Positions 5,141 to 64,000 of a stretch of 64,000 nucleotides of DNA are shown here, in pieces; the stretch's first letter is position 1; every line of letters begins with the position of its first letter. This DNA is from Cymbomonas tetramitiformis (lineage: Eukaryota; Chlorophyta; Pyramimonadophyceae; Pyramimonadales; Pyramimonadaceae), in NCBI GenBank assembly GCA_001247695.2, contig LGRX02034421.1, positions 40,723-104,722 of the forward strand, in the 5' to 3' direction. The translations under genes were made by a program, and so were the position numbers. The notes beneath the pieces were generated by a model that saw nothing but the letters and a program-made list of their open reading frames with translations, was not told the origin of the DNA and searched no databases.

Positions 5141-6190
5141 TTAGCTCCGTGCCCATCTCAGCCTCCCTCCCCTGCGACGCCTTCAGAGCCGTCACCGTCG
5201 CCACCTGCTCCGCCTGCAGCTCCGCCATCTGCTCCTCGGACGCCGCCGCCGACTGCTGCATGCCCTGCAAGTCCGCCGACACCTTCGCCTCCCGGAGCTG
5301 ACGCCTCACCTCAGCCTCCACCTCCAGCGCCTGCCTCTCCTCCTGCGCCGCTGCCAGCTCCGTGCTCATCTCTGCCTCCCTCCCCTGCAACGCCTTCAGA
5401 GCCGTCACCGTCGCCACCTGCTCCGCCTGCAGCTCCGCCATCTGCTCCTCGGACGCCGCTGCCGCTTGGTTCCAACCTTGTGCGACCGCCAACACCTTCG
5501 CCTCCCGGGCTGACGCCTCACTGACCTCTGCCATCAGCGCCTGCCTCTCCTCCTGCGCCGCTGCCAGCTCCGTGCCCATTGCAGCCTCCCTCCCCTGCAA
5601 CGCCTTCAGAGCCGTCACCGTCGCCACCTGCTCCGCCTTCAGCTCCGCCATCTGCTCCTCGGACGCCGCCACCGACTGCTGCATGCCCTGCAAGTCCGCC
5701 GCCATCTTCGCCTCCCGGGCTGACGACTCACTGACCTCCACCTCCAGCGCCTGCCTCTCCTCCTGCGCCGCTGCCAGCTCCGTGCCCATCTCAGCCGCCC
5801 TCCCCTGCAACGCCTTCAGAGCCGCCACCGTCGCCAGCTGTTCTGCCTGCAGCTCCGCCATCTGCTCCTCGGACGCCGCCGCCGACTGCTGCACGCCCTG
5901 CAAGTCCGCCGCCATCTTCGCCTCCCGGGCTGACGACTCACTGATCTCCACCTCCAGCGCCTGCCTCTCCTCCTGCGCCGCTGCCAGCTCCGTGCCCATT
6001 GCAGCCTCCCTCCCCTGCAACGCCTTCAGAGCCGCCACCGTCGCCACCTGCTCCGCCTTCAGCTCCGCCATCTGCTCCTCGGACGCCGCCGCCGACTGCT
6101 GCATGCCCTGCAAGTCCGCCGCCATCTTCGCCTCCCGGGCTGACGCCTCACTGACCTCCACCTCCAGCGCCCGCCTCTCCTCCTGCGCCG
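4330..6190 (-). repeat. 70-residue (210-bp) tandem repeat within the coiled coil
   Basis: The phrase encoding ELAAAQEERQAL recurs near 4,530, 4,740, 4,920, 5,131, 5,341, 5,551, 5,761, 5,971 and 6,181, with a strict 210-bp spacing in the last six copies. Each unit also carries SAREAKMAADLQGMQQSAA and AEEQMAELKAEQVATV. Seventy residues is exactly ten heptads, so adding or removing units keeps the coiled-coil register. High similarity between neighbours implies recent unit turnover. The unit near 5,131-5,143 carries the frame-breaking deletion. Confidence 0.8.
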
Positions 6191-9100: not shown

Positions 9101-12100
9101 CCATCAGGGCCCCCTCACGCTTGGCTGCGGCGAGCTGCTCGGTCGCGTCCTTCTCTCTGGCCACCGCGGCCGCGCAGCTCTCCTCCCCGTGTGCTTGTGC
9201 CTGCTCCGCCAGCACCAGCTTCTCCCCCAGCTCGGTGCGAACAGCCATCGACGCGTCGAGCTCGTCTACCAGCACGCCCATCTTCCTCTGCGCCACGGCC
9301 AGCTCCTGCGCCACGTGGGACTTCTCCGTCTCCGCCAAGTTCAGCCGCTGCATCACGGCCGCCTCCTCCGTCTGCGATTCCTGCAGCTCCCCCAGCAGCG
9401 CCTCCTGCTCCGCATGCGCTGCCACGAGCGCCTCCTCGAGCTGCACCCTCTCCCCCCGCAGCGCCTCCTGCTCCGCCATTGCCCCACTCTCTGCAACCTG
9501 CACTGCTTCCAGCTCCGCCACCAGCCTGAACCTGTCATGCTGCACCGCCTCCAGCTGAGCCTTCAAATCCTCGACCGAGTGTCGCGGCACCTCCGGTTGG
9601 CCGGCGCTGTCAGGATCCTGGCTGAAAGAGGCGCGAGGCTCCTCGCCGACCACCAAGCGCGGCTGCCTCTTCAGCGCCACGAGCTCCTCCAGAAGCAACG
9701 CCCCCTCCACCTGCGTGCACCCCAACTCCTCCGCGAGCTCCTCCTTCTGGTCCTGTGCGGCGCGCAGCTGCTGGCTGACCAAACTGCGCTCCTGGCGGAG
9801 CCCCTCCAGCTCCTCGGCGGCCTGGCTCTCTCGCAGGGCGGCCGCGGAGACGCGGGCGCTCGCGTCCGCCTTCTCCTGCTGCAGCGCAACCAGTTGCCGT
9901 CGGGCCTCGGCTTCCTCGGCCGCCACCTCCGCCATGCGAGACGCAAGCCCGGCCCGCTCGCGTTTTGTCTCGCTCAGCTCGCGCCGCATCTCCGCCGCGA
10001 GCAGATTGGCGTCCCTCAACTTGGCCCCAAGCGCAAGCCCCTCCTCCTGCACAGTCGCCAGCTGCTCGCTCATGTCCACTTCCTCCTTGCGCGCCCTCGC
10101 CACTTCCTTCAGCAACGCCAGATTCCTGGACTGCGTCGCCGCCAGCTGCTCATCAACGCTGTTGACTACCTGCGGCGCGCCCGCGCCGTCCCCCTGCACA
10201 CGCACCAGCGCCACCTGCTCCGTCACCGTCTTCGTCACCTGGTCCGTCAGCATGAGCATGGTGTCCAGCACCGACTCCATCTTGGAGGAGAACCCGGTCT
10301 TCTCCTCCCGCAGAACCTGCATCTCCTGTGCCACCTCCGCCTCCGCGTTTCTCATCCCAGACACCTCCTCTGCCAGCGCCTCCTTCTCTTGCTGCAGCGA
10401 GATCATCTGCTCGCCTGCGACCCCCTGCCAGTGCTGTATCCTTGCAAGCTCCATCTCCAGACCCTCCCTCTCCGACACGGATGTCTGCAGCTCCTTCTTG
10501 AACAGCGCACTCTCCTGCTGCGCGTCCGCCAGCTTCTTCCCAGACTCCTGCTCCTGCGCCTTTGCCACCTCCAGCTCCTCCGCCACCACAGCACACTTGG
10601 CGCGCGCCTCCGCCAAATCTTGCTCCAGAGCCTTCTTCTCTTGCCGCACAAGTGCAAGGTTCCGGGTGGCATCCTCCTCCCTCCCCGGCTCCCCTGCAGC
10701 CACCTCCTCCACCTGTGGATGCTGCGCGGCCACCTCCTCCACCTCTAGATGCTGCGCAGCCACCTCCTCCACCTCTAGATGCTGCGCGGCCACCTCCTCC
10801 ACCTCTAGATGCTGCGCGGCCACCTCCTCCACCTCTGGATGCTGCGCAGCCACCTCCTCCACCTGTGGATGCTGCGCAGCCACCTCCTCCACCTCTGGAT
10901 GCTGCGCAGCCAGCTGCTCCATCAGCATCAGGTTGTTACCTCGGGCCTCGGCTGCTGCCCGAAGGGCTTCTGCCTCCCTCTGCCGCACCTGCTCTGTCTC
11001 GGCCATCAGATCGGTCACCGTGCCCTCTGCGGATGAAAGCTGGCGCGTAAGGTCGGACGTGGCATCCAAGGCCAAGGCCAGTTCCCGGCTTACTGCCTTC
11101 TCCTGCATCTGCGCTGCGGCTAGTAGCTCGTCCAGCACTCCAATCTTCTCCCTCGAGACGCGCAGCAGCTGTGCGGTGGCCGCCTCCCGCTCCTCCGCTG
11201 CGGCCGCCTGATCCACGATTGCACGTCGCTCCTCACGCCATTTCTCCAGCTGCCGCGCAAGCGCCTCCTTCTGCTGCATCTGCTCGAGCAGAACCTCACC
11301 TGCCATCGCCTCCAGCTCCTGCACAATGGAACTACTGCTCTCCGAGCCCGGCTGCCCTTCCTCCTTGCTCTCCGCCATCGACCCTTGCCCGCTTACCACC
11401 ACCTGCTGCTCCACCTCACGCACGATCACCATACTGTGCGCTGCGGCGCCTGCGCTCGCAAGGCCCGCATCAGCGGCTGGGGGAGAAGCAGCGCTCTCCA
11501 CCGACAGATCGAGAACCCCCCTGTCCTCGCATGCGCGGATTCGGATGTGGCTGTCGCTGAGCTCGGACCTGCATGTGGGAGACCTGGGGGTCGCAGGCGA
11601 GACTGGCAGCGACTCTGGTGCGGCGTACCGCCGCTCGCGGCCTCTCCGCAAGGAGGCAATCTCCGCCCATAGCACCTCCGCCTCAGCAGTCACCGCCTCC
11701 ATCTCCTGCCTCGCCTCATCGCGCTCCGCAGCCAGAAAATGCGAGTGCTTTAGGGCCCCCTCCTTCTCCTCCAGCGCACCCTGCAGACTGTAGGCCATAG
11801 CCGCCTCATGCTTCGTCACTTCCGCCAGTTGCTCCTGTGTCGTGCTCATTCCAGTCTCCGCCTTCGCCAGCGTGTCCTGCATCTCACTCACCTTCTCCCG
11901 CGTCTCCTTCTCCTCCTCCAGCGCTGCTTCCATCACACTCTCTGCTGCCACCACCTGCTCCAGCAACATCGCCTTGTCTTGCACCGCTGATGCCAGGTGC
12001 CTCGCCACCGCCACGTTCTCCTCCCGCGACGTGGCCAGCTCCTCCATCGCACTCTCCGCCTCCTCCTCCGCAGACGCCAGCCGCTTGTACAGCACCTCCT

Positions 12101-12539
12101 TCTCCTCGGTCATCAGCTCCAGCTTGATCTGCGCCTCCTGAGCCTCACACTCCGCCACATTTACCATCTCCTCTAGTGCTCGCACACGCCCGTTCTCCAT
12201 CTCCGCCGCCTCCGCCCCTGCGGCGCCCCCTACGCAGTCCGCACTAGGCGGCTGCTGCGCTTGCGCATGCTCCTCCCCTTGAGGCGCCGCGAGCCTCGCC
12301 TCAAGGCCGTCCCTCTGGTCAAGTGCATCTGCCAGCAGCTGCACCGCCTCCGCGCTCTCTGTCTCCGCCACTCTCACACGCTCCCGCAAAGCGGCTTCCT
12401 CCGCCTCAACACCTCCACTCTCCCAGCAGGTTCGCGGCTGTCTCCTCCCACTCCCTCCCCATGAAACCCCCCTGCAGCCCCTCCCCCCGCCGCCCCCCTC
12501 CCCCCGCCCGCATCCCCTCTGATCCCACATCCCCTTCAC
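5124..12539 (-). CDS. Giant coiled-coil protein, segment 3 (central rod)
   Basis: A single 2,471-codon open frame on the minus strand, nearly all heptad-type coiled coil (for example VEDLKAQLEAVQHDRFRLVA and RLVAELEAVQVAESGAMAEQ). The first 45 or so residues are Gly/Arg-rich out-of-frame reading of the preceding segment; the true protein probably enters this frame near 12,425 at ESGGVEAEEAALRERV. A short linker region around 11,340-11,640 (Ser/Pro-rich) separates two rods. No catalytic domain is visible. It ends at 5,124, after a 2-base deletion in a repeat unit, and continues in segment 4. Combined with the other segments the rod would exceed 5,000 residues. Confidence 0.75.
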   Translation of the reverse strand: MKGMWDQRGCGRGEGGGGGRGCRGVSWGGSGRRQPRTCWESGGVEAEEAALRERVRVAETESAEAVQLLADALDQRDGLEARLAAPQGEEHAQAQQPPSADCVGGAAGAEAAEMENGRVRALEEMVNVAECEAQEAQIKLELMTEEKEVLYKRLASAEEEAESAMEELATSREENVAVARHLASAVQDKAMLLEQVVAAESVMEAALEEEKETREKVSEMQDTLAKAETGMSTTQEQLAEVTKHEAAMAYSLQGALEEKEGALKHSHFLAAERDEARQEMEAVTAEAEVLWAEIASLRRGRERRYAAPESLPVSPATPRSPTCRSELSDSHIRIRACEDRGVLDLSVESAASPPAADAGLASAGAAAHSMVIVREVEQQVVVSGQGSMAESKEEGQPGSESSSSIVQELEAMAGEVLLEQMQQKEALARQLEKWREERRAIVDQAAAAEEREAATAQLLRVSREKIGVLDELLAAAQMQEKAVSRELALALDATSDLTRQLSSAEGTVTDLMAETEQVRQREAEALRAAAEARGNNLMLMEQLAAQHPEVEEVAAQHPQVEEVAAQHPEVEEVAAQHLEVEEVAAQHLEVEEVAAQHLEVEEVAAQHPQVEEVAAGEPGREEDATRNLALVRQEKKALEQDLAEARAKCAVVAEELEVAKAQEQESGKKLADAQQESALFKKELQTSVSEREGLEMELARIQHWQGVAGEQMISLQQEKEALAEEVSGMRNAEAEVAQEMQVLREEKTGFSSKMESVLDTMLMLTDQVTKTVTEQVALVRVQGDGAGAPQVVNSVDEQLAATQSRNLALLKEVARARKEEVDMSEQLATVQEEGLALGAKLRDANLLAAEMRRELSETKRERAGLASRMAEVAAEEAEARRQLVALQQEKADASARVSAAALRESQAAEELEGLRQERSLVSQQLRAAQDQKEELAEELGCTQVEGALLLEELVALKRQPRLVVGEEPRASFSQDPDSAGQPEVPRHSVEDLKAQLEAVQHDRFRLVAELEAVQVAESGAMAEQEALRGERVQLEEALVAAHAEQEALLGELQESQTEEAAVMQRLNLAETEKSHVAQELAVAQRKMGVLVDELDASMAVRTELGEKLVLAEQAQAHGEESCAAAVAREKDATEQLAAAKREGALMANEITSAQERAQQAAEELAVLQQEKVLFEEQLRAWNASEVALAARRPPNEPHESQLTAVEAEQLMPSHAVAPSKRSAGGALQQAALVEGKPREAEQPPSAATHAEEPQVMEIGRVSAGPARGEGVLNHAETLFQTDQARLQQQAQGSQGRGAAMGVELAATPEGRWRLEAGDSTVVPKEEEAPSSSAVASGAAGASPGRETELEALLAAAPAEGQPLKVRADHARGQDIIAADAAPVSQQEEALVGGEVATARSEQGVVSERLEAAQAREAALMMELEEVHVERLALMEEIATATARVKKAAESFTALQQEKSATEQLLAASQADHAGTRESLSAATAARAEAEDQLRGMQEEARTRSEALRALESALATVSEEEAAARSEEAELKDTIAATRWENAALMPQAAEAHMSSSEAAESLQAMQQELASAEEQLVTMEAAAAAAAAAVEAAVEESTRLSLELDASRLEAERAGGEMAAAQQEWAAEAERSAAVAAAEGARTTERLEALRQEKEILGETLSETAADQAAKTEALRAARVHEAELDAQLAAAQHEMEGLALQVAAARDSEAAMSNDLQAARCEREALGEQLVASERGNAAIEARLTSAGNREEALGKKLMVAQEASEALAEQAAAASAREGAVCDDLRAAQREQGRLGEQLEAACAEEAAAVHALQGEASAAASQEARARSHMEAVLQQSEALESRLRQALLQQAAMSKRVEAEQMEMQARAQAASDQVELLEEERSLFGVQLAATQAKHAAAQGALSVSRQSEGELRVELASAQQEGETLVQQIASARSREATAADAAALAREEVALLAEQLAAAHTERVAAEVARRAAQDKEGEMEDRLSAIERQTETAQQGAHAEQLVLEEQLASVRTRQAVTAAALKESQRKWGESDRRLSEAEQRMGDFQEQALAAAAREGQTSAALEAAQREATLLGKQLAVVQAEHTAMADTLQRSKGEKVELEDCLAAAQEERRALEVEVSEASAREAKMAADLQGMQQSAAASEEQMAELKAEQVATVAALKALQGREAAMGTELAAAQEERQALEVEISESSAREAKMAADLQGVQQSAAASEEQMAELQAEQLATVAALKALQGRAAEMGTELAAAQEERQALEVEVSESSAREAKMAADLQGMQQSVAASEEQMAELKAEQVATVTALKALQGREAAMGTELAAAQEERQALMAEVSEASAREAKVLAVAQGWNQAAAASEEQMAELQAEQVATVTALKALQGREAEMSTELAAAQEERQALEVEAEVRRQLREAKVSADLQGMQQSAAASEEQMAELQAEQVATVTALKASQGREAEMGTELSGAGG
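10690..10915 (-). repeat. 30-bp tandem repeat encoding AAQHPEVEEV
   Basis: About seven consecutive 30-bp units encode the decapeptide AAQH(P/L)(E/Q)VEEV inside segment 3. The period is 30 bp throughout, so frame is kept. The unit is not a multiple of seven residues and contains Pro-His, so it probably makes a stutter or flexible break in the coiled coil. Confidence 0.85.
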
Positions 12540-15500
12540 GCCCGCCTCCTATCAGGCCTCTCTTCTCCACCACAGGACCCTGCTCTCCGGACGCCGAGCC
12601 CTCCAGCCGCGCCTCTGGCGAGGAGCTCAGCTCGAGCAGCCGCTGGGCAGACAGCAGCTGGCCCTCCAGCTTGGCCTGCGCGCTCTCCAGGCGCCGCCGC
12701 TCCGCCTGCCACTCGCTCTGGCTCTGCGACCGTGCTTGTAGCTCTGCCGACAACCCCGTCTCCAGCATCTCCACCTTGGACATCAGCGCCTGCTCCCGCC
12801 GCGCGGAGCGCTGCGCCTCCTCGGGGGGAGTGCCCGTCGCGCTGCGGGGAGTCCCCGCCTGCTGGGGCGTGCGCAGAGCTGAGCCGGCCACATCGCCGCG
12901 AGCGCCGTCGATAGCCGTGGAGGCATCTGCCCACGGGTCGAGGCGGGGCTGCCTGAGGCCAGCGGTTGGCGTACCAGACGGCGCGCGTCTCCCCTCCAAG
13001 ATCACCGACTCCTCCTCCTCGAGCGCCGCCTGCGCCCTGTCCAGCCGCGTCCTCACCCACAGGGCCCGCTTCCGCGTCTCCCGTCGCCGAGGGTCTTGGC
13101 CGCCTCCGTCTGCCAGCAGCTCCGCCTGCAGCGCCTGGGCCTGCCGATGCAGGTCCGTCGCCACCTGGCGCACCCTCCAACCGGCGTTCTCTCCCCTTGG
13201 TGTGCCCGCTACCTCCTCCGCCTTCGTCACGTATCCATGAAGCTCGCTTGCTGCGGCGGCCAGCTCCGCCACCTCCACATTAAACTGCGCGGCGCGGCGC
13301 TCACTTGCCCCCCGCAGCTCCACGCACTGCGCCGCCAGTTGCTCCCGCGCAGCCTCCACCTGCTCGGCGTGCTGCACGCGGCTCTCTACCCTCCCGAGCT
13401 CGCCCGCAAGGCCCTCCACCTGGGCTTGATGCCGCTCCTCCAACTCGCGCATGTACTCTTCCCGTTCCGCGGTAAGCCGAGCGGCCGCCTGCACCTCCGC
13501 CGCCTCCACCCCAAGCAAGCCCTGCAACAGCTCCACCTGCACCTCCAGCTCCGCCAGCTGCCGTCCCGAACGCTCGCCCGCCTCCGCGTCCCGGCCCTCC
13601 GCCGTCTGCTCCGCCATTTTCAGCTTCACGTCGGCCTCCACCAGCCGCGCCACGAGCTCCCCCGTCTCCCGCTTCAGCTGCACGCGCAGCGACTCCGCCT
13701 GCGCCTCCCACAGCTCCGCTCGCTCGGCCCGCTCCCGCAGCTGCGCCAGGTCTGCCGCGCTCCACTTGCTCGCCACGATGCTCTGCAGCAGCACCTCGTC
13801 GACGTGCGCGGCTCGAGCGCGCGCCGCCGCGTCGCCGGGGTCCGGCGCCGGGCTCGCAAAGTAGCGGTCACACTCAGCACTGAGCGCCGCCTCCGCGGAC
13901 TCCAGCTCGGCCCGCAGCTGCGCCACCCCCGGCTCGCCCTCCTGCAGCGCCACCTCGCCGCGGTGCACCGCGGCTTTCCGCCTCGGAGTGCTCGGGGAGC
14001 TCGGTGCGGGCTCCTCCATGAACGTCATCGCGTGCTTCAGCGCCATCTTGCACGCCGACACCCGCTCCACAAGCCTTGCTACGCTCACCGCACCTTGGCA
14101 CCCCTCACCCTCCTCGCTCCCACCCTCCATTGAGACCCCTGAGGCCGCCCCGGCGGAAGCCGGCTGCCGGGGGGGCGCCCGCCGCAGCGCCGCCTGACGT
14201 GCCGCATGCCACCAGCCTGAGCCCTCCTGGGGGCGCGAGGCCATACCAGATCCCAGCATGGGCATGCTCTCTGCCCTCCCACGCCCAGCATCCCACTCCG
14301 GGGACCCCACAGCCTGCCTGCCCCCCCCCGGCACCCGCGCTAATGCCGCCAACCTGCCCTCCGACTGGCCTCGGCTCCACGCCACCGACCAAGCGTCCGC
14401 CGCGTTGGCTCTCCTCAGACTGTCGTCGAAGGATTGCCGGAAACCTTCCATCCAATCCCTCTGCTCCACCGGCTCCTCCGGCGTGGCCGCGTTGTCCTCC
14501 GCCCCGTCACGGCCGGCCGTCCAGGCTCCGAGAGATGGCAGGGCAAAAGGCCCACGAGGGACAACCTCCGCCACAGCGTTGGTCCACATTGTCACACTCC
14601 TACCCGCATCCGCTTCCGCATATGCAGGCGAGCTCGCCTCAGAAGGCGTCCCCGCCACTGCCCCACCGGCAGCCAGAGGGCTCTCCGCACCCACAAGCTG
14701 CTGCCTGCTGCCCGTGCTCCTGACCTCCTCCTCGCGCCCGTCGTCCTCATCATCGCCGATCAACTCCCCATTTCTACCTGTGTTGTTCTCCCGAGCGAGA
14801 TCCCATGATTCGTCGATATTCGCCGCCCCATTCGTCCAAAGCGTGACGGACTGCAAGGACGCGGGAGGAGTGGCGGAAGGCAAGGTCAGCCCGAAGGTGC
14901 TCGCCGATGCCGGAATCTTGCGGAGGCTGTATACTGCGCCGCCTCCAATACCCCCTCCCATCCGCTCGGCCGTCGCAACCTCCGCCATCCCCGTCCCTCC
15001 TGCGCCCTCGTACTGCGCCCCCATCCTCTCCGATGGTGCCCATCTTGGGGTTGAGCCATCCCTCCCCTCATCCTCCTCGTCCGCATCCGTTGCTCCGTCC
15101 TGCTTCTCCGGGGCCCTGGCACATTCTGCACCAGCGAGGGCAGACGCTGTGGACAGCACCGCGCGCGGCGTCTCCACCAGCAACTGCTCCATCTCTGTCT
15201 GCTGAACCGCCACCATCTCCGCCCACGTTCCTCGCCGGTTTCTCTTCTGCCAGAGCCCGGTGGGGGCAGCCGGGCCCGGCCTTTCCCCTCCCTGCTGCTC
15301 TGCATGCTTCCCCCTGAGAGCCTGTAGCTTCGCCTCGAGTTCAAGCACCGCATGCCCCACCTTCCCTTCAGAGGCCGAGGCCCGCTCCGAGCCCTTCGGA
15401 GAGAGTCCCGCCACATTCCCTTCACTGAGGCGCCTCCTATGGCCGCTTACCTCCTGCGAGCCCTTCACCGAGGCCCGCTCCGAGCCCTTCAGAGAGAGTT

Positions 15501-15549
15501 CCATAGCCCCAAAGTTCCCATCACTGAGGCGCCTCCTATGGCCGCTCAC
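12406..15549 (-). CDS. Giant coiled-coil protein, segment 2
   Basis: Open minus-strand frame of 1,047 codons. The N-terminal third is low-complexity and Ser/Gly-rich, with two related phrases SVTLWTNGAANID and SVTMWTNAVAEV. From about residue 560 it becomes coiled coil (LRVQLKRETGELVARLVEAD, QLAELEVQVELLQGLLGVEA). It starts inside the HRRRLSDGN repeat shared with segment 1 and ends at NLLGEWRC followed by a stop, where another frame resumes the rod (EAEEAALRERVRVAE). The join near 12,425 needs a one-base shift or a small intron. No function is recognised. Confidence 0.7.
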   Translation of the reverse strand: MSGHRRRLSDGNFGAMELSLKGSERASVKGSQEVSGHRRRLSEGNVAGLSPKGSERASASEGKVGHAVLELEAKLQALRGKHAEQQGGERPGPAAPTGLWQKRNRRGTWAEMVAVQQTEMEQLLVETPRAVLSTASALAGAECARAPEKQDGATDADEEDEGRDGSTPRWAPSERMGAQYEGAGGTGMAEVATAERMGGGIGGGAVYSLRKIPASASTFGLTLPSATPPASLQSVTLWTNGAANIDESWDLARENNTGRNGELIGDDEDDGREEEVRSTGSRQQLVGAESPLAAGGAVAGTPSEASSPAYAEADAGRSVTMWTNAVAEVVPRGPFALPSLGAWTAGRDGAEDNAATPEEPVEQRDWMEGFRQSFDDSLRRANAADAWSVAWSRGQSEGRLAALARVPGGGRQAVGSPEWDAGRGRAESMPMLGSGMASRPQEGSGWWHAARQAALRRAPPRQPASAGAASGVSMEGGSEEGEGCQGAVSVARLVERVSACKMALKHAMTFMEEPAPSSPSTPRRKAAVHRGEVALQEGEPGVAQLRAELESAEAALSAECDRYFASPAPDPGDAAARARAAHVDEVLLQSIVASKWSAADLAQLRERAERAELWEAQAESLRVQLKRETGELVARLVEADVKLKMAEQTAEGRDAEAGERSGRQLAELEVQVELLQGLLGVEAAEVQAAARLTAEREEYMRELEERHQAQVEGLAGELGRVESRVQHAEQVEAAREQLAAQCVELRGASERRAAQFNVEVAELAAAASELHGYVTKAEEVAGTPRGENAGWRVRQVATDLHRQAQALQAELLADGGGQDPRRRETRKRALWVRTRLDRAQAALEEEESVILEGRRAPSGTPTAGLRQPRLDPWADASTAIDGARGDVAGSALRTPQQAGTPRSATGTPPEEAQRSARREQALMSKVEMLETGLSAELQARSQSQSEWQAERRRLESAQAKLEGQLLSAQRLLELSSSPEARLEGSASGEQGPVVEKRGLIGGGREGDVGSEGMRAGGGGRRGEGLQGGFMGREWEETAANLLGEWRC

Positions 15550-15670
15550 CTCCTTCGGAGCCCTTCACCGAGGCCCGCTCCGAGCCCTTCGGAGAGAGTC
15601 CCATCGCCCCAAAGTTCCCATCACTGAGGTGCCTCCTATGGCCGCTCACCTCCTGCGAGCCCTCCATCGC
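15370..15670 (-). repeat. Tandem repeat encoding SGHRRRLSDGNFGAM-type units
   Basis: Three to four units of about 85-95 bp encode variants of EVSGHRRRLSDGNFGAM followed by LSPKGSERASVKGS. The basic RRxLSDGN pattern resembles a basophilic kinase target, repeated, which is an inference from the pattern only. One unit has CTCCTTCGGAGCCC where its neighbours have CTCCTGCGAGCCC, an extra base near 15,551-15,557 that causes the first frame break. Confidence 0.75.
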
Positions 15671-52951: not shown

Positions 52952-55603
52952 CACCACCCGGAGCTGTGACTGTAGCTAATAGGGCTAGGCAAGCGGAGCT
53001 AACTAAACAGATAACAAACAGCATTTACTGGAAACAGATATACTTCAAGCTGGGTGCCCGGGGACTTGTCCCGGCACAACCCACCACTGCGGCTAAGGCT
53101 AATCACACCACCAGGATCTGAAATAAGCAGACTCTAGCCACTGCAAAGCTGGTCGGCAGAGCCGAGTTCAGCAGACGGATTCCAAGGCAGGAAAACATCC
53201 GAAGTAAGTTGAGATGAAACATCATAAGTGTTGACACCACCAGACCCAAGTGGGTCAGGCGGATCCCAGAGTGGAGTGGCAAGACTACCAGATTGCAGAG
53301 CCGCTGAGGCCGATTGAGAAAAGAACGGTGCCACATCCTGCGGCGGCAATGACGAACCAGTAGTAACCACAGGCGGGCAAAGGGAATCCAGTAATGCACC
53401 ACCGGGATGAACCGCACTGTAGCCGCAGGTGGCTCCGGGCTCAACCAGGCCCCTGACACCACCGCCGACCACGAGTGTCGGCATCGCCGTAGCACTGAAC
53501 AGAAACGTAGTCACCATGAAAAGAGTGAGTGCAAATTCTCCGACGCCAAATGGCTTGGAGCCTTTGGGGACTCCGAACCGCCGAAATGCCGCAGCCGCCG
53601 GCGGTGCACCCCCCTCAATTTCAGTCAGGCAGACACCAGGAGGGCAGTCCGAGCCCTCTCCATCATCATCGGAGTCACACACCTCAACAGGCTCAGGGTC
53701 AATGTCAAGCCAGTCAGGGTGGACAGTGTTGAATGTTTTGAAAGAGTTGTCAGCAGGAGCCATCGGGCCGAGAGCCAGAGAGGCAGACGGCGGCACGAAG
53801 GCGGCACGGCTGACCTCATGCAAGTCAATCGGCTTACCATGCACGGGTGCAGAGGCCTTCGGCAGCAGCGCTTGCTGGCGGTCGGCTCAGCGACACCACC
53901 AGCAAGCGGACCGCTGACCTCAGCAAATGCAACACGGCCAATGGAAAGGTGCTCATCAGGTGCAGACTCAGCAGAGGCAGCAGCATCCTTGAACTGCTGC
54001 AGAGCCGTAGGCTCTGGAGCAAAGGAATGCGCAGACAGTTCACAGATTTCAGGTTGCCCCACGAGAGCACACAAGTGCTCCATGGACCCCTCATCCCCAG
54101 CGTCATAGTACCGCTGAAAACGAAGGGCAAGCACGTCGGAGTCATAAGACTCGACGGCTTGGCAGTAGGATGCCGAAATGGACAACGGGTGAGTGTCCTT
54201 GTGAGGACACTCACTCAGCCAATGCTTCGACCCAACGGCGCGGCACTTCTCGTGCCTGCACGTTGGGACAAAGGTGCCAGACCGCTTGTCAAAAGCCACC
54301 TCCGAAGAGGCGGAATGAGCAAGCGGTTGCACCCCAGGTCGGTGGAAGCCGCGCGGAGTGTGTTTCCCATGAGGTGGCTTGGTTGGAGCCACCCTTCTTA
54401 AGGGAATCCACATCCCGCTGCAACTTGACCAACTGAGAACTGAGCCGCTCGATGGCCGAAGCCAGGCCAGTGTCAGTGGCGCAAGATGCTACGGACATGG
54501 GGCGCCCCGCAGTGCGCTTGCCCGAGAGCCGCCCGCAGCGGTACTGCTCGCGCACGCGCGCCTGCAGGGTGAGCAGACTCACAGCCGCACGCTGGTCAGC
54601 TCGAGCAAACGAGTCAACCAGCGTGGCGTAAGCCGGTCCAGACAGGGCAGAGAGGAATTGCCTTTTAACAGCGTCTTCGGGCAGCGTCTGCAGACGCTGC
54701 GCATCCCGAAGACAACTGTTAAAGAGACGAATGCCAGAGTCAGGGTCACTTTCATCCGAGATTCTCACGTCAAGCAGCTCAGTCAGAGACTCGAACGGAG
54801 TCGAATCATCAGCGAGCATACGCACCACCTCGAGGGTGGCACGTTTGCCGTCAGCAGGAACATCAGCCCCAGAAGCCTCCACCCAATTACGGGCAGGAGA
54901 CCCTGGCGCAGTCAGCAGCAACAGCACAGAGTACAGGAGCTCATTTGCAGCAGTCATGACAGGGACATTAGCAGCAGACAGCTCAAACAGGGGTGCAAGC
55001 GCCTGCGACTGCAGCGTGAAAAGCTGCTGAATTTCGGAGACCAGCTGCGAAAAAATGTCCGAAGCCGACGATTCACTGCCATGAAACTTTGCCGTTTTGT
55101 CTCCCAGAACTTTAGTGGCTGCTGTCTTTGCGCACTGAACATCGAACGAGTCTTTGCGTAACCGCTGTACGAGCGTCGCAGCCGCAGCCGACTCGTCAGC
55201 CGAAGCCAAATGCGGCGTTGTGGGGGTAGCCGAATTCAATGCCCCAACATCATCGAAAATAGTCGCTAATTTACGCGCCCTAGCGCGTGTACGTGGTCTT
55301 GGCGGTGTGTCCATTCCAAAAATGACAGTGAGATGGGATTGCGGGCTAGCGGTGCGACAGTAGCGGACAATTCCGCAGCGGCCAATTCCTGCAGGAGTCT
55401 CAGCAAACAATAACATAATCAAGCAGGTCATGAGCCGAGTGGCTAATCGTGGGAGCGACCCACAAAACGCGGAGTGTCCTGCCCGCTGATCAAACGGAAC
55501 GTAAAACATAACCATACTCAGCGACGATACTCTGCCGAATAAATGCCGAAAAACTGATCTCCACTTCAAAAGGAGGCCATACCGCGGAGAGAAAACCACT
55601 GTC
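52731..55603 (-). mobile_element. GAG-only retroelement C, cut by the CACTA-like element
   Basis: Same family as element A. The 3' terminal repeat is at 52,731-52,951 and the GAG-like gene follows on the minus strand. The match to A continues to about 55,603 (GAAAACCACTGTC; A has GAAAGCCACTGTC at about 28,530) and then stops where a GAAGAC-rich element begins. The 5' repeat is therefore expected beyond the right edge of the window. Confidence 0.75.
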
Positions 55604-55698
55604 CCTACATTCTGGGAAAACCAGAAGACGCGTCTTCTGAACGTCTTCTGGACGTCTTCTGAACGTCTTCTGAGACGTCTTCTGGGTCCAGAAGACAC
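53134..55698 (-). pseudogene. GAG-like gene of element C, frameshifted
   Basis: Starts MDTPPRPRTRARARKLATIF (about 55,314). The N-terminal 300 codons are intact and closely match element A. Frame breaks occur near 54,370-54,390 (extra bases relative to A in the Pro-rich linker) and near 53,865 (bases missing). The zinc-knuckle region, hydrophobic segment FALTLFMVTTFLFSATAMP and tail remain readable in other frames. The span above about 55,600 is sequence of the invading element. Confidence 0.7.
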
Positions 55699-56280
55699 CC
55701 AGAAGACGTCCAGAAGACGTCTTCTGCGCGCATTCTAATGTCTACCATCTTCTGGTTTCCAGAAGACGTGCAGAAGATCTTCCGGGAAGACGTCCAGAAG
55801 TTATCTTATGGACGTCTTCTGTATGACTTCTGTACATCTTCTGAATTCCGGAAGATGTCTTCTTGATATCTTTTAGGTGTCTTCTGTACATCTTCCCGGA
55901 AGATCTTCTGGACGTCTTCCAGAACTCAGAAGATGGTAGACATTAGAAGTCGCGTAGAAGACGTCTTCTAGATGTCTTCTGGATATCTTCTGGAATCCAG
56001 AAGACGTATAGAAGACATCTTCCGGAATCCAGAAGATGTACAGAAGTCATGCAGAAGACGTTCAGAAGATATCTTCGGGACGTCTTCTGGACGTCTTATT
56101 ATATATATACATATCATTATACAGACATTAGAAGACGTCCAGAAGATGTCTTCTGGACGTCTTCTGCACATCTTCTGGGATCCAGAAGATGTCCAGAAGA
56201 CGTCTTCCGGAACCCAGAAGATGTGCAGAAGACGTCAAGAAGACATCTTCCGGACGTCTTCTGTAACTCTACCAAAAGTC
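55612..56280. repeat. Subterminal GAAGAC/GTCTTC palindrome array
   Basis: Tens of copies of AGAAGACGTC and its complement, often as the full palindrome AGAAGACGTCTTCT, with point variants (GAAGATGT, GACGTCTTCC). Spacing is irregular. Inside it, 55,733 to 55,948 is bounded by a 22-bp perfect inverted repeat that includes TTCTAATGTCTACC. In position it corresponds to the subterminal transposase-binding repeats of EnSpm elements. Confidence 0.85.
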
Positions 56281-56394
56281 GCTATACGTATGCGTCCAGG
56301 TTACACGCATGCATGCAGTTCGTTGGCAGGATGATACAAATGGAACAAAGAAGAAGGTTTTTTTACAAAGCTATTTATTTACATATTTACAGTT

Positions 56395-58289
56395 TCAATC
56401 ATCAGAACCGTCTTCACTACTAGCACTAGAAAGGATTTCCTTCGGAGACCCCGCTTCGGAGCTGGTGGTTTCGTATGCCCGATGCAAGTTCTCCTTGAAG
56501 ATGGGGCGGAGGTGGCTGATGGGAACCACCAGGCCCCACTTTGACTTGTCCCCGAAGGGGTACGTCTTCTCCTCCATCGCAGTGAGAAGTTGGGACCCGA
56601 GGCCACCCGGCCCGGCGATCTTGTCGTTCGCCTTGAGGCCCTTGCCGTACAACTTCTCCAACCCGACAAAGGCCATTTCCATGCCATTTTGCCAGGCGGA
56701 CAAGAGCAACGGGGCGTTGTCAAAGCCAACGTCGTCCTTGTCTACGGCCAAAGAGAGCACCTGGGTGCAGTCACACAAAAGTTTACGATCAGCTGCAAAT
56801 GTCACTTACGTAATTAAAGAAACTAAATACATATCCAGAAGACGTGCGGAAGATACCCAGAAGACATATGTGATATCTTCTGGATATCGTGTATTCTAAG
56901 GGTTGTGCTTGCAGAACCATACCTTGATGCCAACATACTCGCCATTCAAGTGAAGGGCGGTGACCGACTTCTTTTTCGCTGTACCCGACTTCAAGCCATG
57001 GGCGGCCACATCCTTTGAATTGGGTGGGTGCGTTATCACCCCCGTGAGAAGGGGCATGTCCGCGGTCCATATCGCGGACTTCCCCTTCTCGTGGTAGAAC
57101 CCCGTGGGGAGTATCTCCGGATCGTTCACCAGAGACTCCACCACGCAGTACAATACCACGTGGCTACCCACCTCAAACCCCTCTTCAGCATCCTCCGCCA
57201 CCGCCTTCTTCTTCCCCTTCGGGTCCTCCGCCACCGCCTTCCCCTTCGGGTCCACCGATGCCGCCTTCCCCTTCGCCTTGTTGTCCTCCGCCACCGCCTC
57301 CGCCACCTTCCTAACCTTAGAGCTGCCCGCCTTTTTTTCCAGCTCCTCGATCTGCGTCTTTGACTCCAACTCGAGCTGCAAGCATGCCGCCACTGAAACA
57401 GGCATATGTTAGTATGTTATACAAGAAGACACTCAGAAGACACTCAGAAGACACTCAGAAGACAGTCAGTCATACTTGCCTATTAGCTAAGCCCTATTAA
57501 CTAAGGAAGACGTGCAGAATACTCTCAAAACGTCTCTGAGGTGTCCTGGTGACGTCTTCTTGGTGAGACAACAAAACAGGTGAAACAGAAATTAATTAAG
57601 CAAATTAACGTACCCATCTCATCCTTCGCCTCACCGTCCAAGGCGTCCAAGGCCTTGGCGGGCAGCTCGTGCAGCACCAACCCGTCGATGCTGAGCAACG
57701 CTGCCTTTTTTTCCTCGTGCGTTGGGTACTTGGTTCGGGCGTCGGTCTCAATGACCAACGCCTGAATGGCGTCCGTGTGCTTGCGGTAGTATGGGTGGGC
57801 GGTCCGGGAGGCTTGCCAAACCCACTTTCCCTTTTCGGTGCCCCTCCCCGACACACAGGTATACACCCCATACCTCCAAAATATTCTAAAATCGCAAATC
57901 ATGTTCCTGAGGCGCCTGCTCACATCACGAACATCGTAGTCGTCGCTGCAGGCCAGGACTTCCTCCCTGAAGGCCGTAGCCGCAAACGCTTGGTCCGTTA
58001 CGTTAAGCAGCGGGTCCAGCCGCCCGTCGCAAATCCGCTCCACCATGATGCGGGTGAAGTCCGCTTGGAAGTGGAGCCCGCCCGTCTTGGACAACTTCTT
58101 CTTGGACTCCCCGCGTTGGTTTCCCCCACCGCCTCCGCTCCCCTCCTCCCCATCCCTTGCTACGAGCCACTTGATGAAGTTTTCGTCGCTGGCGGTGCCT
58201 CCCACCGCCGCGACGAACGACTCAAACTTCTCCCGGAGGTCACCCTCCTTCACCCCGCTGGCATTCTTTCGTTTCAAGGAATTAGACAT
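56395..58289 (-). CDS. Second gene of the CACTA-like element, unknown charged protein
   Basis: Exon 1 is 57,614-58,289 (MSNSLKRKNASGVKEGDLRE...). It has a helical N-terminus, a Gly/Lys linker, an Arg/Tyr-rich part (DVRDVSRRLRNMICDFRIFW) and a C-terminal helix. A GT-AG intron of 221 bp joins in phase (G+TG, Val) to exon 2 at 57,392: coiled coil LQLELESKTQIEELEKKAGS, then AEDPKGK-type acidic/basic repeats, then GFEVGSHVVLYCVVESLVND and NGEYVGIK. A third exon, 56,395-56,794 or so (ADRKLLCDCTQVLSLAVDKD ... ASSEDGSDD), follows, but no donor/acceptor pair in the usual places joins it in frame, so an indel or unusual splice is likely. No domain recognised. By position it could be the element's DNA-binding partner protein, as TnpA is in EnSpm. 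Confidence 0.6.
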
Positions 58290-58614
58290 TTTGTTTTCTG
58301 AGTTCTTTAAAAAGTCAAACTGTGCTGGAAGTATCGTTAACGGGTACTTTTTAGCGCCGCAAAGATGCCTGGAAGACGGGTAGAAGGTCTTTCGCGTGTC
58401 TCTGACGCATCCTGTTCCGTACCCCGGTGATCGTACCGGTATCGAAACGACACCAACGTTCAAACAGGGCCGTCGATCAGCGAGCCCCTTTACCTATCGC
58501 GTCGGATCGGTCGAGTGAACTCTAGATGGTTTTTTACGGGAAAATCGAGGACTCTCTGTAGGGAAACGCGATTTTATTGAATATAACTTTTGCCGTGCAG
58601 CGAGTTTCCATCAT

Positions 58615-58860
58615 CGTGGGTGCATGGCCGAGTGGTCAAATATGGTAAGCCGAACGCGTCTCGCGCGAGGGTGAGGGGTTCGAATCCCCTTGGAGGCATG
58701 GGCATCCACGATACCCCTTGTGTTCTAGCGATATGAGGCGATTACCGCCAACGACGCCGCTAGTGCACAAGGGGCGTCGTGGGTGCCCACCCACGCCTTC
58801 ATGCCATTTTAAGTTTCTGTAACTCATGGAGACCGTCCGATTAAGACGGGGGGGTTTTTC
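58615..58860 (+). ncRNA. Candidate Pol III transcript with tRNA-like head
   Basis: A box-like TGGCCGAGTGG at 58,625-58,635 and B box-like GGTTCGAATCC at 58,677-58,687, spaced as in a tRNA with T-arm AGGGG/CCCCT. The head is closed by CGTGGGTGC (58,615) pairing with GCATCCACG (58,702-58,710). A 17-bp stem with two mismatches follows (58,714-58,730 with 58,758-58,774), then GTGGGT-GCCC-ACCCAC and a small hairpin before TTTTT at about 58,853. A normal tRNA acceptor stem and anticodon arm are not formed, so it is not an ordinary tRNA gene. It may be a tRNA-derived SINE or a structured RNA. Confidence 0.45.
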
Positions 58861-59148
58861 TGGACCGCAGATTGCACTGTCCGCTGCGCGCGTGATCGAC
58901 TCTTCGACCGTTGCTAGGAGCGATGGTGCTCTAAAACAAGAGCAGTTTCTTCTACCAAATTAGGCGGCCGTTTTAACTTAGTAACTTGGTACGTTTGACC
59001 CTCTCCCGAACAAACCACTTGTTTTTTTGCAATTCTACCTTCACAGTACGGTTTTGCCCAATATTGCGCACCTTATATGTTTTTTTGTTTTTTCGCGATT
59101 TTTTATAGTTTTTTTTCAAAAAATACAAAAACACCCAAAAAAACATTC

Positions 59149-59460
59149 GGAAGATACCCCAGATATCTTCTGTGCATCTTGTTACCCTCCAGAGATGTCT
59201 TTGAGGAAGACATGTCTTCTGGAAATCTGCAACTTGTAGAAGTTCCACCGAACGTCTTAACACCCCTCTCGCTAGGTAGACATTAGAAGAAGACGCGTAG
59301 AAGATCGTCAAAAAAATGAGGAAGACGCCCCTAAGAGGGGTGTTAAGACGTTTGGTGGAACTTCTACAAGTTGCAGATTTCCAGAAGACATGTCTTCCTC
59401 AAAGACATCTCTAAGACAACCGGAAGATGTACAGAAGATATCTGGGGTATCTTCCGCAAA
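59149..59460. repeat. ~130-bp-arm inverted repeat upstream of the transposase
   Basis: GGAAGATACCCCAGATATCT at 59,149 through CGTCTTAACACCCCTCT at about 59,270 recurs inverted at about 59,332-59,460 with few mismatches. The spacer is about 60 bp and contains GGTAGACATTAGAA. The arms include GAAGACATGTCTTC. Confidence 0.8.
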
Positions 59461-59700
59461 CACAGTCAAGAAGACGTCCGGAAGATGTCAAAAAAATGTC
59501 TTCCGCGTGTCTTCTGCGTGTCTTCCACGTGTCTTCCGCGTGTCTTCCGCACCTCTTCTGGGTTCAGGAAGACATATATTCCCCGAAGGTGTTCGGAAGA
59601 TGTACAGAAGGTATCTGGGGTATCTTCCGCAAGCACAGTCAAGAAGACGTCCGGAAGATGTCGGGAGATGTCTTCCGCGTGTCTTCTGAGTGACTTCTGA
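59437..59700. repeat. Direct repeats of ~90 bp with GAAGAC motifs
   Basis: ATCTGGGGTATCTTCCGCAA ... CAAGAAGACGTCCGGAAGAT at 59,437 recurs at 59,610 (about 173 bp apart). It lies directly upstream of the transposase start and may be promoter or transposase-binding region. Confidence 0.7.
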
Positions 59701-59774
59701 ACGTCTTCTGAGTGTTTGTCTTCAGGATGCCCTCCGCACTACCTTGGCCAAGTGTCCTTTGTATAGGAGATAGA

Positions 59775-62700
59775 ATGGCAAGTAAACGTGCCGCGCATCT
59801 CCAAAAGGGGGAAGCGCCCCCAAAGACCAAAATGTCGTCCTTCAAACGAGCGATGCTCACTAAACCCCCCCCCGAATCCGCGGCGGAGGTCTTCCGTCAA
59901 TCCAAGCCGGAGGTCTTGAAGGGGAAGATGGCAGCGGTGCACGATTGGTTGTCTACGGTGTCGCCATCCCGCGAGCTGGATCATGAGATGACGGCATGGC
60001 TCGGGGAATCCGTCTACATTCATGAGCATTCCCCTGCAACAAGGTGCTTGCTTGTCTCCATAACCCACATGCATCTATCATGCACATTTATGCAGTTTGG
60101 AATGCATACAACCGAAGATGTGTGGAGCATCTTCTGCGCGACTTCTAGACGTCTTCCACGTGTCTTCTATGAATTCACCATCACAATGTTTTCGCAGGGC
60201 TGAAGATCATGAGGACGCGGTTCGTATTTGCGTGCCGCGTCAAAGCAACCGGCCACCTTTCGGCTTAGCCGAGCCCACTAATGTGCCTTTCTCGGTTCAA
60301 GAGTTTTTTGGCTATGTGCAAGCAATTTCAGACTTGCATGAACCGGGCTTTAAGGAGCATACGTGGGAGGACATTTTCTCCGATCCATTGGACTTGGCCG
60401 ATGATCCGGGCACGGTGCACTTTCGACAACATAAGTGGCTGCTTGAGCCTCCCATTGGCATCAATCTCCAAGGAATGGTGTTGAAGATACGGGATGCAAT
60501 CGCATCGGGCGAACCATATCATCGTCCTCCGGAGCTTGTGAGTGATGGGGATAGGCGGATGAATCCGCAAAGGCTTACACCTTCACCTCCGGCCCCAATG
60601 GATGAAGTTGTGGACATGACCTATACCGAAGTCCATGAGCCCGAGGACCCTCCCCCGGAGATGCCAACACGAAGGTGCGAACCGGTTGGCACGGCATGCC
60701 CGTATCTCCATGAAAGATGTATGCCTGCACGCTCCGTCGGAAGTCGATCCGAAGACGTCCCGAGCGTCTTCTGCGCATCTTCCGGGCTCATTCCGGTCAA
60801 GCTTATTCCCGGCGGATGCGTGTGCCATGCTTGCGCAGGCGGATGAAAGGCCCCGTAGCACACCGCAACATGCCTCCCACGCCCGTCGAGTTGGCGGGTG
60901 AGACGCAAGAAGATGACGGGGCCGCCGTTGGTACCACGTCCAACCGTGACCCCCTCCCCCCGGAGAGGCCAACACGAAGGTGCGAACCGGTTAGCACGGC
61001 ATGCCCGTATCTCCATGAAAGATGTATGCCTGCACGCTCCGTCGGAAGTCGTTCCGAAGACGTCCCGAGCGTCTTCTGCGCATCTTCCGGGCTCATTCCG
61101 GTCAAGCTTATTCCCGGCGGATGCGTGTGACATGCTTGCGCAGGCGGATGAAAGGCCCCGTAGCACACCGCAACATGCCTCCCACGCCCGTCGAGTTGGC
61201 GGGTGAGACGCAAGGGGACGCCGGGGCCGCCGTTGGTATCACGTCCAACCGTGACCCCCTCCCCCCGGAGAGGCCAACACGAAGGTGCGAGCCGGTTGGC
61301 ACGGCATGCCCGTATCTCCATGAAAGATGTATGCCTGCACGCTCCGTCGGAAGTCGTTCCGAATACGTCCCGAGCGTCTTCTGCGCATCTTCCGGGCTCA
61401 TTCCGGTCAAGCTTATTCCCGGCGGATCCGTGTGACATGCTTGCGCAGGCGGATGAAAGGCCCCGTAGCACACCGCAACATGCCTCCCACACCCGTCGAG
61501 TTGGCGGGTGAGACGCAAGAAGATGACGGGGCCGCCGTTGGTACCACGTCCAACCGTGCCCCCCTCCCCCCGGAGAGGCCAACACGAAGGTGCGAACCGG
61601 TTGGCACGGCATGCCCGTATCTCCATGAAAGATGTATGCCTGCACGCTCCGTCGGAAGTCGTTCCGAAGACGTCCCGAGCGTCTTCTGCGCATCTTCCGG
61701 GCTCATTCCGGTCAAGCTTAATCCCGGCGGATGCGTGTGACATGCTTGCGCAGGCGGATGAAAGGCCCCGTAGCACACCGCAACATGCCTCCCACACCCG
61801 TCGAGTTGGCGGGTGAGACGCAAGAAGATGACGGGGCCGCCGTTGGTATCACGTCCAACCGTGACCCCCTCCCCCCGGAGAGGCCAACACGAGGGTGCGA
61901 ACCGGTTGGCACGGCATGCCCGTATCTCCATGAAAGATGTATGCCTGCACGCTCCGTCGGAAGTCGTTCCGAAGACGTCCCGAGCGTCTTCTGCGCATCT
62001 TCCGGGCTCATTCCGGTCAAGCTTATTCCCGGCGGATCCGTGTGACATGCTTGCGCAGGCGGATGACAGGCCCCGTAGCACACCGCAACATGCCTCCCAC
62101 GCCCGTCGAGTTGGCGGGTGAGACGCAAGAAGATGACGGGGCCGCCGTTGGTATCACGTCCAACCGTGACCCCCTCCCCCCGGAGAGGCCAACACGAAGG
62201 TGCGAATCGGTTGGCACGGCATGCCTGTATCTCCATGAAAGATGTATGCCTGCACGCTCCGTCGGAAGTCGTTCCGAAGACGTCCCGAGCGTCTTCTGCG
62301 CATCTTCCGGGCTCATTCCGGTCAAGCTTATTCCCGGCGGATGCGTGTGACATGCTTGCGCAGGCGGATGAAACGCCCCGTAGCACACCGCAACATGCCT
62401 CCCACGCCCGTCGAGTTGGCGGGTGAGACGCAAGAAGATGACGGGGCCGCCGTTGGTATCACGTCCAACCGCGGGTCCGGGATGGTGGTGTGTGATTGTG
62501 GCGCGTGTCACTCATCCATGCGCTTCGTCACCATGAGGACACGGTCTCGACATAGGACTATGTTCAAACAGATTGTATGCCTTCCGACGCTTCCGGAAGA
62601 GGCTGTGGACGACGATGAGCAACATCCCGATGGCGAGGAGTCGGATCAGGTGTGCAAATCCGGGTAGAAAGACTATCATTCTCAGGTAACCCTCGCGGAA

Positions 62701-64000
62701 GGTACCCGGAAGACGTGCGAAAGGTCTTCCAGGTATCATCCGCATGTCTTCATGAGAATGAAGGTACATATCAAAATCGGTTACTCCTGATAGGTAATGC
62801 AGTCGTCCTTCACAATTGGCACGTATGTATCTCGTGCCCATTGAAAGTGATTGTGGTTGGCAGGAAGATGCCGATTCCGGTTCCCTTGACGATGCCGATG
62901 CCGATGGAAACTTGCCGGACCCGGAAGCCGTTCAAGAAGAGCTCGACGAATTACTCGACCATGTCGACCCGGAACTTGCTAGAAAGGTGACGGAAGAAAT
63001 CGAAGGAAAATTAAAGTCGTTGGAGAACTTGGTTGATATGGAGGTAACGTTCGCTGTTTGAATTTTTTGCTCAGAATTGAAAATTGTATATAGTGTGATG
63101 TCTTTTGTACCCGGAACACGCCCGGAAGTAACATAGGACGTCTTCCGTGCGTCTTCCTGACGTCTTCCGTTTTATCCTTCGATGACAGACCGCAGCGACG
63201 AGCTCCGAGGATACCCTACTCGACTTATTGGAGTGGAATCTGGATGGCAATATGACTCAAGAATCCTTTGGGCAACTGCTGCACATTTTGAAAACTAATC
63301 ACCCGGACGTGTTTTCTAATTTGCCCGACTCCTTCAAACAAAGCATTGCTCGGTTTAAGGTCATGGATATCCCACTCCTAGTGGTGGACCTTTGCCCGCA
63401 TGGGTGCGTGATGTTCGAAAAACAATTCGCGGACTTTGACCACTGTCCAAGGTGCGGGGCATGCCGTTGGGAGGAAGGTGCGGATCGGTGCGGTGCGGTG
63501 AATGCCGAGGGTGCGGACGACACCCGGAATGCCGAAGCCACCCCGAGTGCAAAGCGAGGGAAGGCGAAGTGCCAATTCTATCATTGGCATTTAAAGGATT
63601 TACTTCAAGCAATTTACAGCCATCCCGGCGTTGCTGGGCTCATGCGTTCGCACGCCACGCGGGAAAAGTCTGAGGAAGGCATTCTGGAAGACATTCCCGG
63701 TGAGTAACACATTGATAGAGCATATCCTGCATTGCCCCGAAGACGTACAGAAGATGTACAGAACGTCTTCCGTACATCTTCCGTACGACTTCCTGATTCC
63801 TACTACTTGAATGAATTTAAGTTGTATTTATGTATCTTGCAGATGGATCTGAGTGGAAGGCGAAGCAAGCTGCATATCCTGACTTCTTCAAGGACCCTCG
63901 CAACGTCATCCTCATGCTTTGCGCCGACGGGGCCACCGTTTGGAAGGACAAGTCGGGGGTTTTCCCTATTTACTTTCAAGTGTTGAACTTGCCACCGGAA
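59775..64000 (+). CDS. tnp2-type CACTA transposase (3' end outside window)
   Basis: Proposed exons: 59,775-60,043 (MASKRAAHLQKGEAPPKTKM), 60,198-60,701, then five 168-nt exons at 60,839-61,006, 61,144-61,311, 61,449-61,616, 61,754-61,921 and 62,059-62,226, then 62,364-62,649, 62,864-63,043, 63,189-63,699 and 63,843 onward. All junctions are GT-AG with matching phases, giving over 900 residues so far. Exon 62,364 ends with a Cys/His cluster (CDCGACH ... RTRSRH). Exon 63,189 carries LLVVDLCPHGCVMFEKQF and CPRCGACRW, the Cys motif that opens Transposase_21 (tnp2). The last exon has DPRNVILMLCADGATVW and FPIYFQVLNLPPE, matching the family's DPRN...DG...NLPP block and its first catalytic Asp. It would bind element ends and cut DNA in the nucleus. 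No stop or frameshift is seen, so the gene may be functional. Confidence 0.82.
60655..62470 (+). repeat. 305-bp tandem repeat = one exon plus one intron
   Basis: Six units with exact 305-bp period (GATGTATGCCTGCACG at 60,716, 61,021, 61,326, 61,631, 61,936 and 62,241). Each unit is a 168-nt exon (56 codons, phase 2 on both sides) and a 137-nt intron. Units are about 97-99% alike. One intron copy has GAATAC instead of GAAGAC at about 61,363. Each exon encodes RMKGPVAHRNMPPTPVELAG, ETQEDDGAAVGTTSNR and PTRRCEPVGTACP. Confidence 0.9.

Follow-up and report, generated by a model that had tools for sequence, protein, structure and literature searches.

The stretch analysed here (the window) comprises 64,000 nucleotides of the green alga Cymbomonas tetramitiformis, bases 40,723–104,722 of contig C24323, and reaches the contig end. 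Its last part carries 8,398 bp of a transposable element, counted from position 55,603, with two genes on opposite strands. In this element and in a sister family from the same genome, all introns that we examined contain arrays of the short unit repeated at the element's own ends, and this unit is specific to the family. Judged by its coding sequence, the element is an EnSpm-like (Transposase_21) DNA transposon. Since the window stops at the contig end, the right part of the element was read from another copy, C23273 (genome searched: 851.7 Mb, 25,745 contigs), where the element is 11,120 bp long, with an inverted repeat at both termini and AAC on either side. The transposase core from this copy matches PF02992, Transposase_21 (tnp2), with E 1.2e-19 and 70.8 bits (cut-off 28.6). 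Beside it lies a match to PF13960, DUF4218, of E 1.2e-5 and 25.6 bits, below the cut-off of 27; DUF4218 is also among the precomputed domains of a related protein, P0001 (CYMTET_3985). The gene structures are based on open frames, GT-AG sites and alignment, and for the minus-strand gene additionally on a public gene model. The features of the window element are as follows.

55,603–55,616, plus strand: left terminal inverted repeat CCCTACATTCTGGG, flanked by TGT at 55,600–55,602; inverted copy at the right end of C23273
55,617–56,280, both orientations: left subterminal array of 11-bp units CCAGAAGACGT; 31 GAAGAC in 55,612–56,280
56,395–58,289, minus strand: minus gene, 503 aa, exons 58,289–57,614, 57,392–56,923 and 56,760–56,395
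57,393–57,613, minus strand: minus-gene intron 1 with array, retained in 8 of 8 copies that yielded it, window included
56,761–56,922, minus strand: minus-gene intron 2 with array, retained in 9 of 9 copies that yielded it, window included
58,290–59,148, no strand: mid spacer of 859 bp, almost motif-free (one GAAGAC)
59,149–59,774, no strand: array upstream of the transposase gene, 18 GAAGAC
59,775–64,000, plus strand: transposase gene with inferred start codon, truncated by the contig end; its core in C23273 matches PF02992. Exons 59,775–60,043, 60,198–60,674, five of 141 bp among the tandem introns, 62,364–62,649, 62,864–63,043, 63,189–63,699 and 63,843 onwards
60,044–60,197, plus strand: transposase intron with array
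60,675–62,363, plus strand: six 164-bp introns with arrays and 141-bp exons between them, a 305-bp exon-intron unit in tandem (introns 60,675–60,838, 60,980–61,143, 61,285–61,448, 61,590–61,753, 61,895–62,058 and 62,200–62,363)
62,650–62,863, plus strand: transposase intron with array
63,044–63,188, plus strand: transposase intron with array
63,700–63,842, plus strand: transposase intron with array, sharing its alignment column with a sister-family intron

Distribution of the motif in the window element

The original prediction held that one palindromic motif, GAAGAC/GTCTTC, is packed into the left end, the spacer before the transposase gene and every intron of a CACTA-like EnSpm transposon. 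The window contains the motif 100 times, the shuffle mean being 29.9 (sd 5.3, 100 shuffles), and counts of GAAGAC per kb, compared with 200 dinucleotide shuffles for each class of sequence, confirmed the packing: 46.3 at the left end (55,612–56,280; 2.0 shuffled), 28.8 in the spacer at 59,149–59,774 (1.3), 20.9 in minus-gene introns (0.8) and 12.8 in plus-gene introns (0.4), or 14.6 if one tandem copy is retained, with none of the 200 shuffles reaching the observed count in any of these classes. The presence of the motif in every intron holds for all 12 distinct introns examined in the two genes, seven from the window (the six tandem copies counted once) and five further ones in C23273 beyond the part in the window. 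Five of the seven predicted intron coordinates were exact, while 56,761–56,922 and 60,675–60,838 replace about 56,800–56,920 and 60,702–60,838.

The exons are not depleted, as had been suggested, but at background (1.3 per kb against 0.6 shuffled in the minus gene, 0.8 against 0.6 in the plus gene), and the plus exons are even enriched in GAAGAY (4.3 against 1.1 per kb, 0 of 200 shuffles). The mid spacer holds 1.2 per kb (0.5 shuffled), positions 1–55,600 of the window 0.3 (0.5), and the non-coding DNA at 56,281–56,394 has no GAAGAC. With the mid spacer and exons near background, the motif is not simply everywhere that coding permits, and the single site in the 859 bp of the mid spacer speaks against the proposal that it had spread wherever coding does not forbid it. 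The 13-mer CCAGAAGACGTCC occurs 919 times in the genome, compared with 23 times for the reversed letters, and twice in the window. The mid spacer also contains a tRNA-like stretch at 58,620–58,700, with what we take to be A-box and B-box look-alikes. No tRNA was reported in this spacer by ARAGORN or Rfam; the 24 Rfam matches at E up to 1 are all under the gathering score and mostly represent miRNA models placed on the arrays.

A 1,137-bp piece of the element has 40 full-length matches in the genome, 99–100% identical (40 of 255 candidates scored), and copies this similar say little about conservation. Four loci (L006, L007, L008 and L012) combine this left end and motif array with a different interior and are probably non-autonomous subfamilies. 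The 503-aa minus protein matches CYMTET_5965 over its full length (displayed as 100% identity, with two residue differences in the alignment), and this gene model supports both minus-gene introns. A part resembling the minus gene is found together with protein kinase domains in P0016 (CYMTET_16502) and P0017 (a EukProt entry), with 70% and 63% of residues identical across some 30% of the query, possibly as a result of capture or domestication.

Ends and introns share a family-specific unit

P0001, which is 66% identical to the transposase core over 64% of it, led to an element of a sister family, C500. Below, the window family is called A and the sister family B. C500 is 10,991 bp long, with the terminus CCCTACATTCTGAC and the target duplication TAT, so both elements read at both ends have a 3-bp target-site duplication (AAC in C23273, TAT in C500). 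In translated segments the two families are 63–67% identical in the transposase core, 36–49% in its N-terminal parts and 36–37% in the minus gene. The subterminal repeats are direct and inverted and closely spaced in both the window element and C500. The terminus is CCCTACA (CCCTACATTCTGGG and CCCTACATTCTGAC), which rules out the CACTA terminus. EnSpm/CACTA terminal repeats are given a CACTA core in the abstract of PMC1636069, and since this core is absent here we call the element EnSpm-like and do not file it as CACTA; of the predicted identity, the EnSpm-like part stands, by the Transposase_21 match, and the terminus does not.

Family B has little GAAGAY. Its end arrays consist of the unit CCCAAACACGT, repeated 11 bp apart and sharing 8 of 11 letters with CCAGAAGACGT. 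We trained position weight matrices on the subterminal regions only (78 sites in A, 43 in B) and scanned with them at 7 bits, with 30 dinucleotide shuffles as background. The introns scanned were the 12 distinct ones of A and 17 of B (15 plus, two minus), the latter set by GT-AG contexts and including several tandem copies. Sites per kb were:

A introns: 27.6 with matrix A, 3.5 with matrix B
A exons: 1.9 with A, 0.2 with B
A mid spacer: 1.2 with either matrix
A spacer before the transposase gene: 44.7 with A, 4.8 with B
A ends: 69.2 with A, 21.0 with B
B introns: 31.4 with matrix B, 5.6 with matrix A
B exons: 0.5 with B, 0.8 with A
B mid spacer: 4.9 with B, 0.0 with A
B spacer before the transposase gene: 37.1 with B, 5.7 with A
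B ends: 45.1 with B, 2.1 with A
First 55.6 kb of the window: 0.52 with A, 0.65 with B

Each of the 12 A introns and each of the 17 B introns has at least three sites of its family's own unit, and the own matrix found more sites than the other in all 12 A introns and in 16 of the 17 B introns, with one tie. Matrices trained on the ends thus pick out each family's own introns: ends and introns share a family-specific unit. The idea that the motif acts beyond the ends gains support from this result. Related elements lacking the motif had been expected to count against the original prediction, and taken literally family B is such a case, being nearly without GAAGAC; however, a unit of its own occupies the corresponding places, which turns the observation into support. 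The mid spacer of B, with three sites in 615 bp (4.9 per kb; shuffle maximum 3.3), is far below the introns. The mid spacers, almost devoid of sites in A and poor in them in B, rule out a motif filling all non-coding DNA. Another copy of family B, L069 (72.5% identical over the joined match, 80–88% in parts), is a deletion derivative with two introns, each holding two B-type sites, and one A-type site at 7 bits.

Conserved positions and separate geometry of the intron arrays

A script placed five transposase introns (A5/B10 to A9/B14) in shared columns when the A and B proteins were aligned; A4/B9, A10/B15 and both introns of the minus gene were matched by eye, giving nine pairs that we take as orthologous. 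A sixth C-terminal pair was not matched by the script; the C500 copy breaks frame there and has six stops in its joined exons. Introns at positions common to both families predate the A/B split. Outside the arrays the pairs can hardly be aligned: z is 0.7–2.1 for eight of the nine and reaches 4.1 in A9/B14, an exon giving 28.9. The members of each pair nevertheless retain a convergent, 11-bp-phased array, built of their own family's unit.

The introns mostly hold one convergent array, and its spacing rule differs from that of the ends. Same-orientation neighbours in introns are spaced by multiples of 11 bp in 25 of 26 cases in A and 46 of 49 in B. The offset from forward to reverse units in introns is 5 mod 11 in 12 of 12 cases in A and 19 of 19 in B (31 of 31 in total). 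At the ends, by contrast, an offset of 5 mod 11 is seen in 5 of 18 cases in A and 4 of 8 in B, and one of 7 mod 11 in 12 of 18 (A) and 4 of 8 (B). An array with intron-type spacing also lies downstream of the transposase stop codon, before the right end, in the joined loci L051+L052 (11,679–11,750), where it is either a 3′ untranslated module or an unrecognised intron. Tandem exon-intron units occur in the same N-terminal part of the transposase gene in all three elements: the 305-bp unit is present in six copies in the window (60,675–62,363) and four in C23273 (L051+L052 joined, 6,123–7,200; one exon is 1 base shorter), and C500 has eight related introns (L065, 4,860–7,274). The copy number thus changes, and the expansions look independent.

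Divergent copies of the minus gene hold both introns in place with their arrays, the number of units in intron 1 being variable. Among the 11 loci considered, L054 and L058 are cut off by their contig ends, no introns were obtained from L059 and L061, and intron 1 of L060 was left out because its donor string differs. Divergence was compared in L053, L055, L056, L062, L063 and L064, with L057 dropped as near-identical to L056. Against L053 the introns are 88.2 and 85.1% identical and the exons 77.5, 73.3 and 66.7%; intron 1 of L053 has lost its AG and this copy is probably decayed. Introns have diverged less than four-fold sites in four of the six copies (L053, 0.131 against 0.347; L055, 0.022 against 0.095; L056, 0.030 against 0.106; L063, 0.043 against 0.168), and upstream DNA has diverged more than introns in five of six, being equal in L064.

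What may read the arrays

What is the role of the intron arrays, then? We propose, from the sequence comparisons, that the 11-bp units are family-specific DNA sites that an element-encoded protein would bind, serving transposition at the two ends and self-regulation where they lie in introns, and we give this reading a probability of about one half. CCAGAAGACGT would be the recognition site of a family-specific protein binding double-stranded DNA, for which the candidates are the 503-aa minus-gene product and the divergent N-terminal part of the transposase, both strongly diverged between the families. At both ends the units would load the protein for transposition, while in introns and before the transposase gene the separate arrays on the 11-bp grid would let the same protein control the element's two genes. 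Such control would act at the DNA level, on transcription, pausing or chromatin, and through these on output or splicing. If the specificity of the protein shifted between the families, ends and introns may have shifted along with it. That the sister family has a different unit both at its ends and in its introns points to a reading of the introns by the element's own protein: with both families in one host, a host factor would have to come with two specificities, and an element protein of differing specificity is simpler. From the same comparisons we infer that the arrays are bound by protein, read as DNA rather than RNA, and regulatory. A stricter version, in which a dedicated intron array with a geometry unlike that of the ends must be recognised by the element's own DNA-binding protein for proper gene expression, as a co-evolving self-recognition code separating the expression of sister families, we hold only tentatively and think doubtful.

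Several observations weigh against the proposal of element-encoded self-regulation. The matrices show cross-talk, with 21.0 sites per kb at A ends under matrix B and 5.6 per kb in B introns under matrix A against 0.4 in shuffles; this is expected from the eight letters that the units have in common and is strongest at A ends. A exons under matrix A lie slightly over shuffles (1.9 against 0.6 per kb), and the comparison comprises two families only. The minus protein matches nothing in Pfam or PDB and shows no recognisable domain. In the nearest copies introns and four-fold sites have diverged about alike (L062, 0.029 against 0.031; L064, 0.026 against 0.018), and where intron divergence is low it spans the whole intron and not the motif core alone. 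Since this whole-intron constraint is not seen in L062 and L064, exchange between copies may contribute.

Other accounts deal differently with the same arrays. A protein might coat the 11-kb element, fold it and join its ends, the introns being merely space for sites without any regulation of genes. The spread of sites along the element and outside exons fits this, and 11-bp phasing suits cooperative binding on one DNA face; but the mid spacer is free for sites and has few, every examined intron has an array, some of these introns lying about 140–150 bp apart, and the spacing rule in introns is unlike that of the ends, so that we consider such compaction unlikely. Rather improbable, in our opinion, is a passive origin, with introns born from or invaded by end repeats, homogenised within a family by gene conversion and serving no function. 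The 11-bp tandem units, which vary in copy number in intron 1, could recombine, and close copies show patchy divergence of exons and introns. However, the introns at positions common to both families are older than the split and yet differ in their unit, and their arrays follow a rule of their own, so that the suggested seeding of introns by the repeat is not a full account. Moreover, few intron 11-mers are identical to an end 11-mer (6 of 51 and 12 of 87), with the core common and the flanking letters different, which disfavours gene conversion as the whole account, with p-values that are naive because tandem copies are not independent.

The arrays might instead work at the level of the pre-mRNA, either by forming hairpins or by binding an RNA-binding protein of the element that governs splicing. 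This would agree with an array in all examined introns and with forward units preceding reverse ones in nearly all of them, so that an intron could fold on itself, and 4 of 16 introns folded singly reach z values of -2 or lower, the best being -4.99. The range nevertheless extends to +0.61, with two of the 16 folding worse than shuffles, the unit is present in both orientations at the ends, and pairing is no better between the arms of one intron than between swapped arms (0.451 against 0.470 in A, 0.474 against 0.481 in B, where 12 of 17 introns were used after tandem copies were dropped), the own value being reached by 1,740 of 2,000 permutations in A and 1,230 of 2,000 in B. Arm swapping and folding thus do not support an RNA hairpin, and both orientations kept without covariation point to double-stranded DNA sites; we regard RNA-level control as improbable. 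Sequences of the GAAGA and TCTT types are well known as splicing motifs, and the arrays could then be generic host splicing signals, GAAGA and TCTTC. Such an account is effectively contradicted by the sister family, which has a different core in the same host at shared intron positions, and by the density of only 0.3 per kb in the other 55.6 kb of the window, and we think it very improbable indeed.

In EnSpm elements the subterminal repeats are seen as sites for transposition, bound by a TnpA-like second protein; to our knowledge, the sites of known EnSpm elements are confined to the ends. The present element resembles EnSpm/CACTA elements (maize En/Spm, soybean Tgmt*) in its Transposase_21, second gene, 3-bp target duplication and dense subterminal repeats in two orientations, and differs from them in the CCCTACA terminus and in the arrays in all examined introns and before the transposase gene. 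The P element of Drosophila provides a case in which an intron of the transposase gene is a control point, with host proteins acting on that one intron. The present introns would be alike in their putative control role and differ in that all those examined carry the element's own end unit. In searches of an open-access library we found no description of end units borne by introns of such elements. Family-specific subterminal motifs are reported for soybean EnSpm elements in a section of PMC2613891, which also poses the rate of co-evolution between subterminal repeats and the protein reading them as an open question. Two families in one genome that differ at both ends and introns are a natural pair for testing this co-evolution, and if the intron arrays regulate the genes, introns would be working parts of a DNA transposon, read by the element itself. 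Introners are transposon-derived introns, and not all their families carry terminal repeats, as a part of PMC9860276 states. The introns described here are likewise linked to DNA transposons in an alga, but they lack terminal repeats at the splice sites, differ outside the array and share positions in two families. An introner origin was rejected, as the introns begin with GT, end with AG and lack CCCTACA, with the arrays internal.

Elsewhere in the window, no Pfam match beyond a weak coiled-coil one under its cut-off was obtained for the open frames on the minus strand at 455–15,564, which are 1,561, 2,474 and 1,052 aa long and occupy a stretch of about 65–72% GC.

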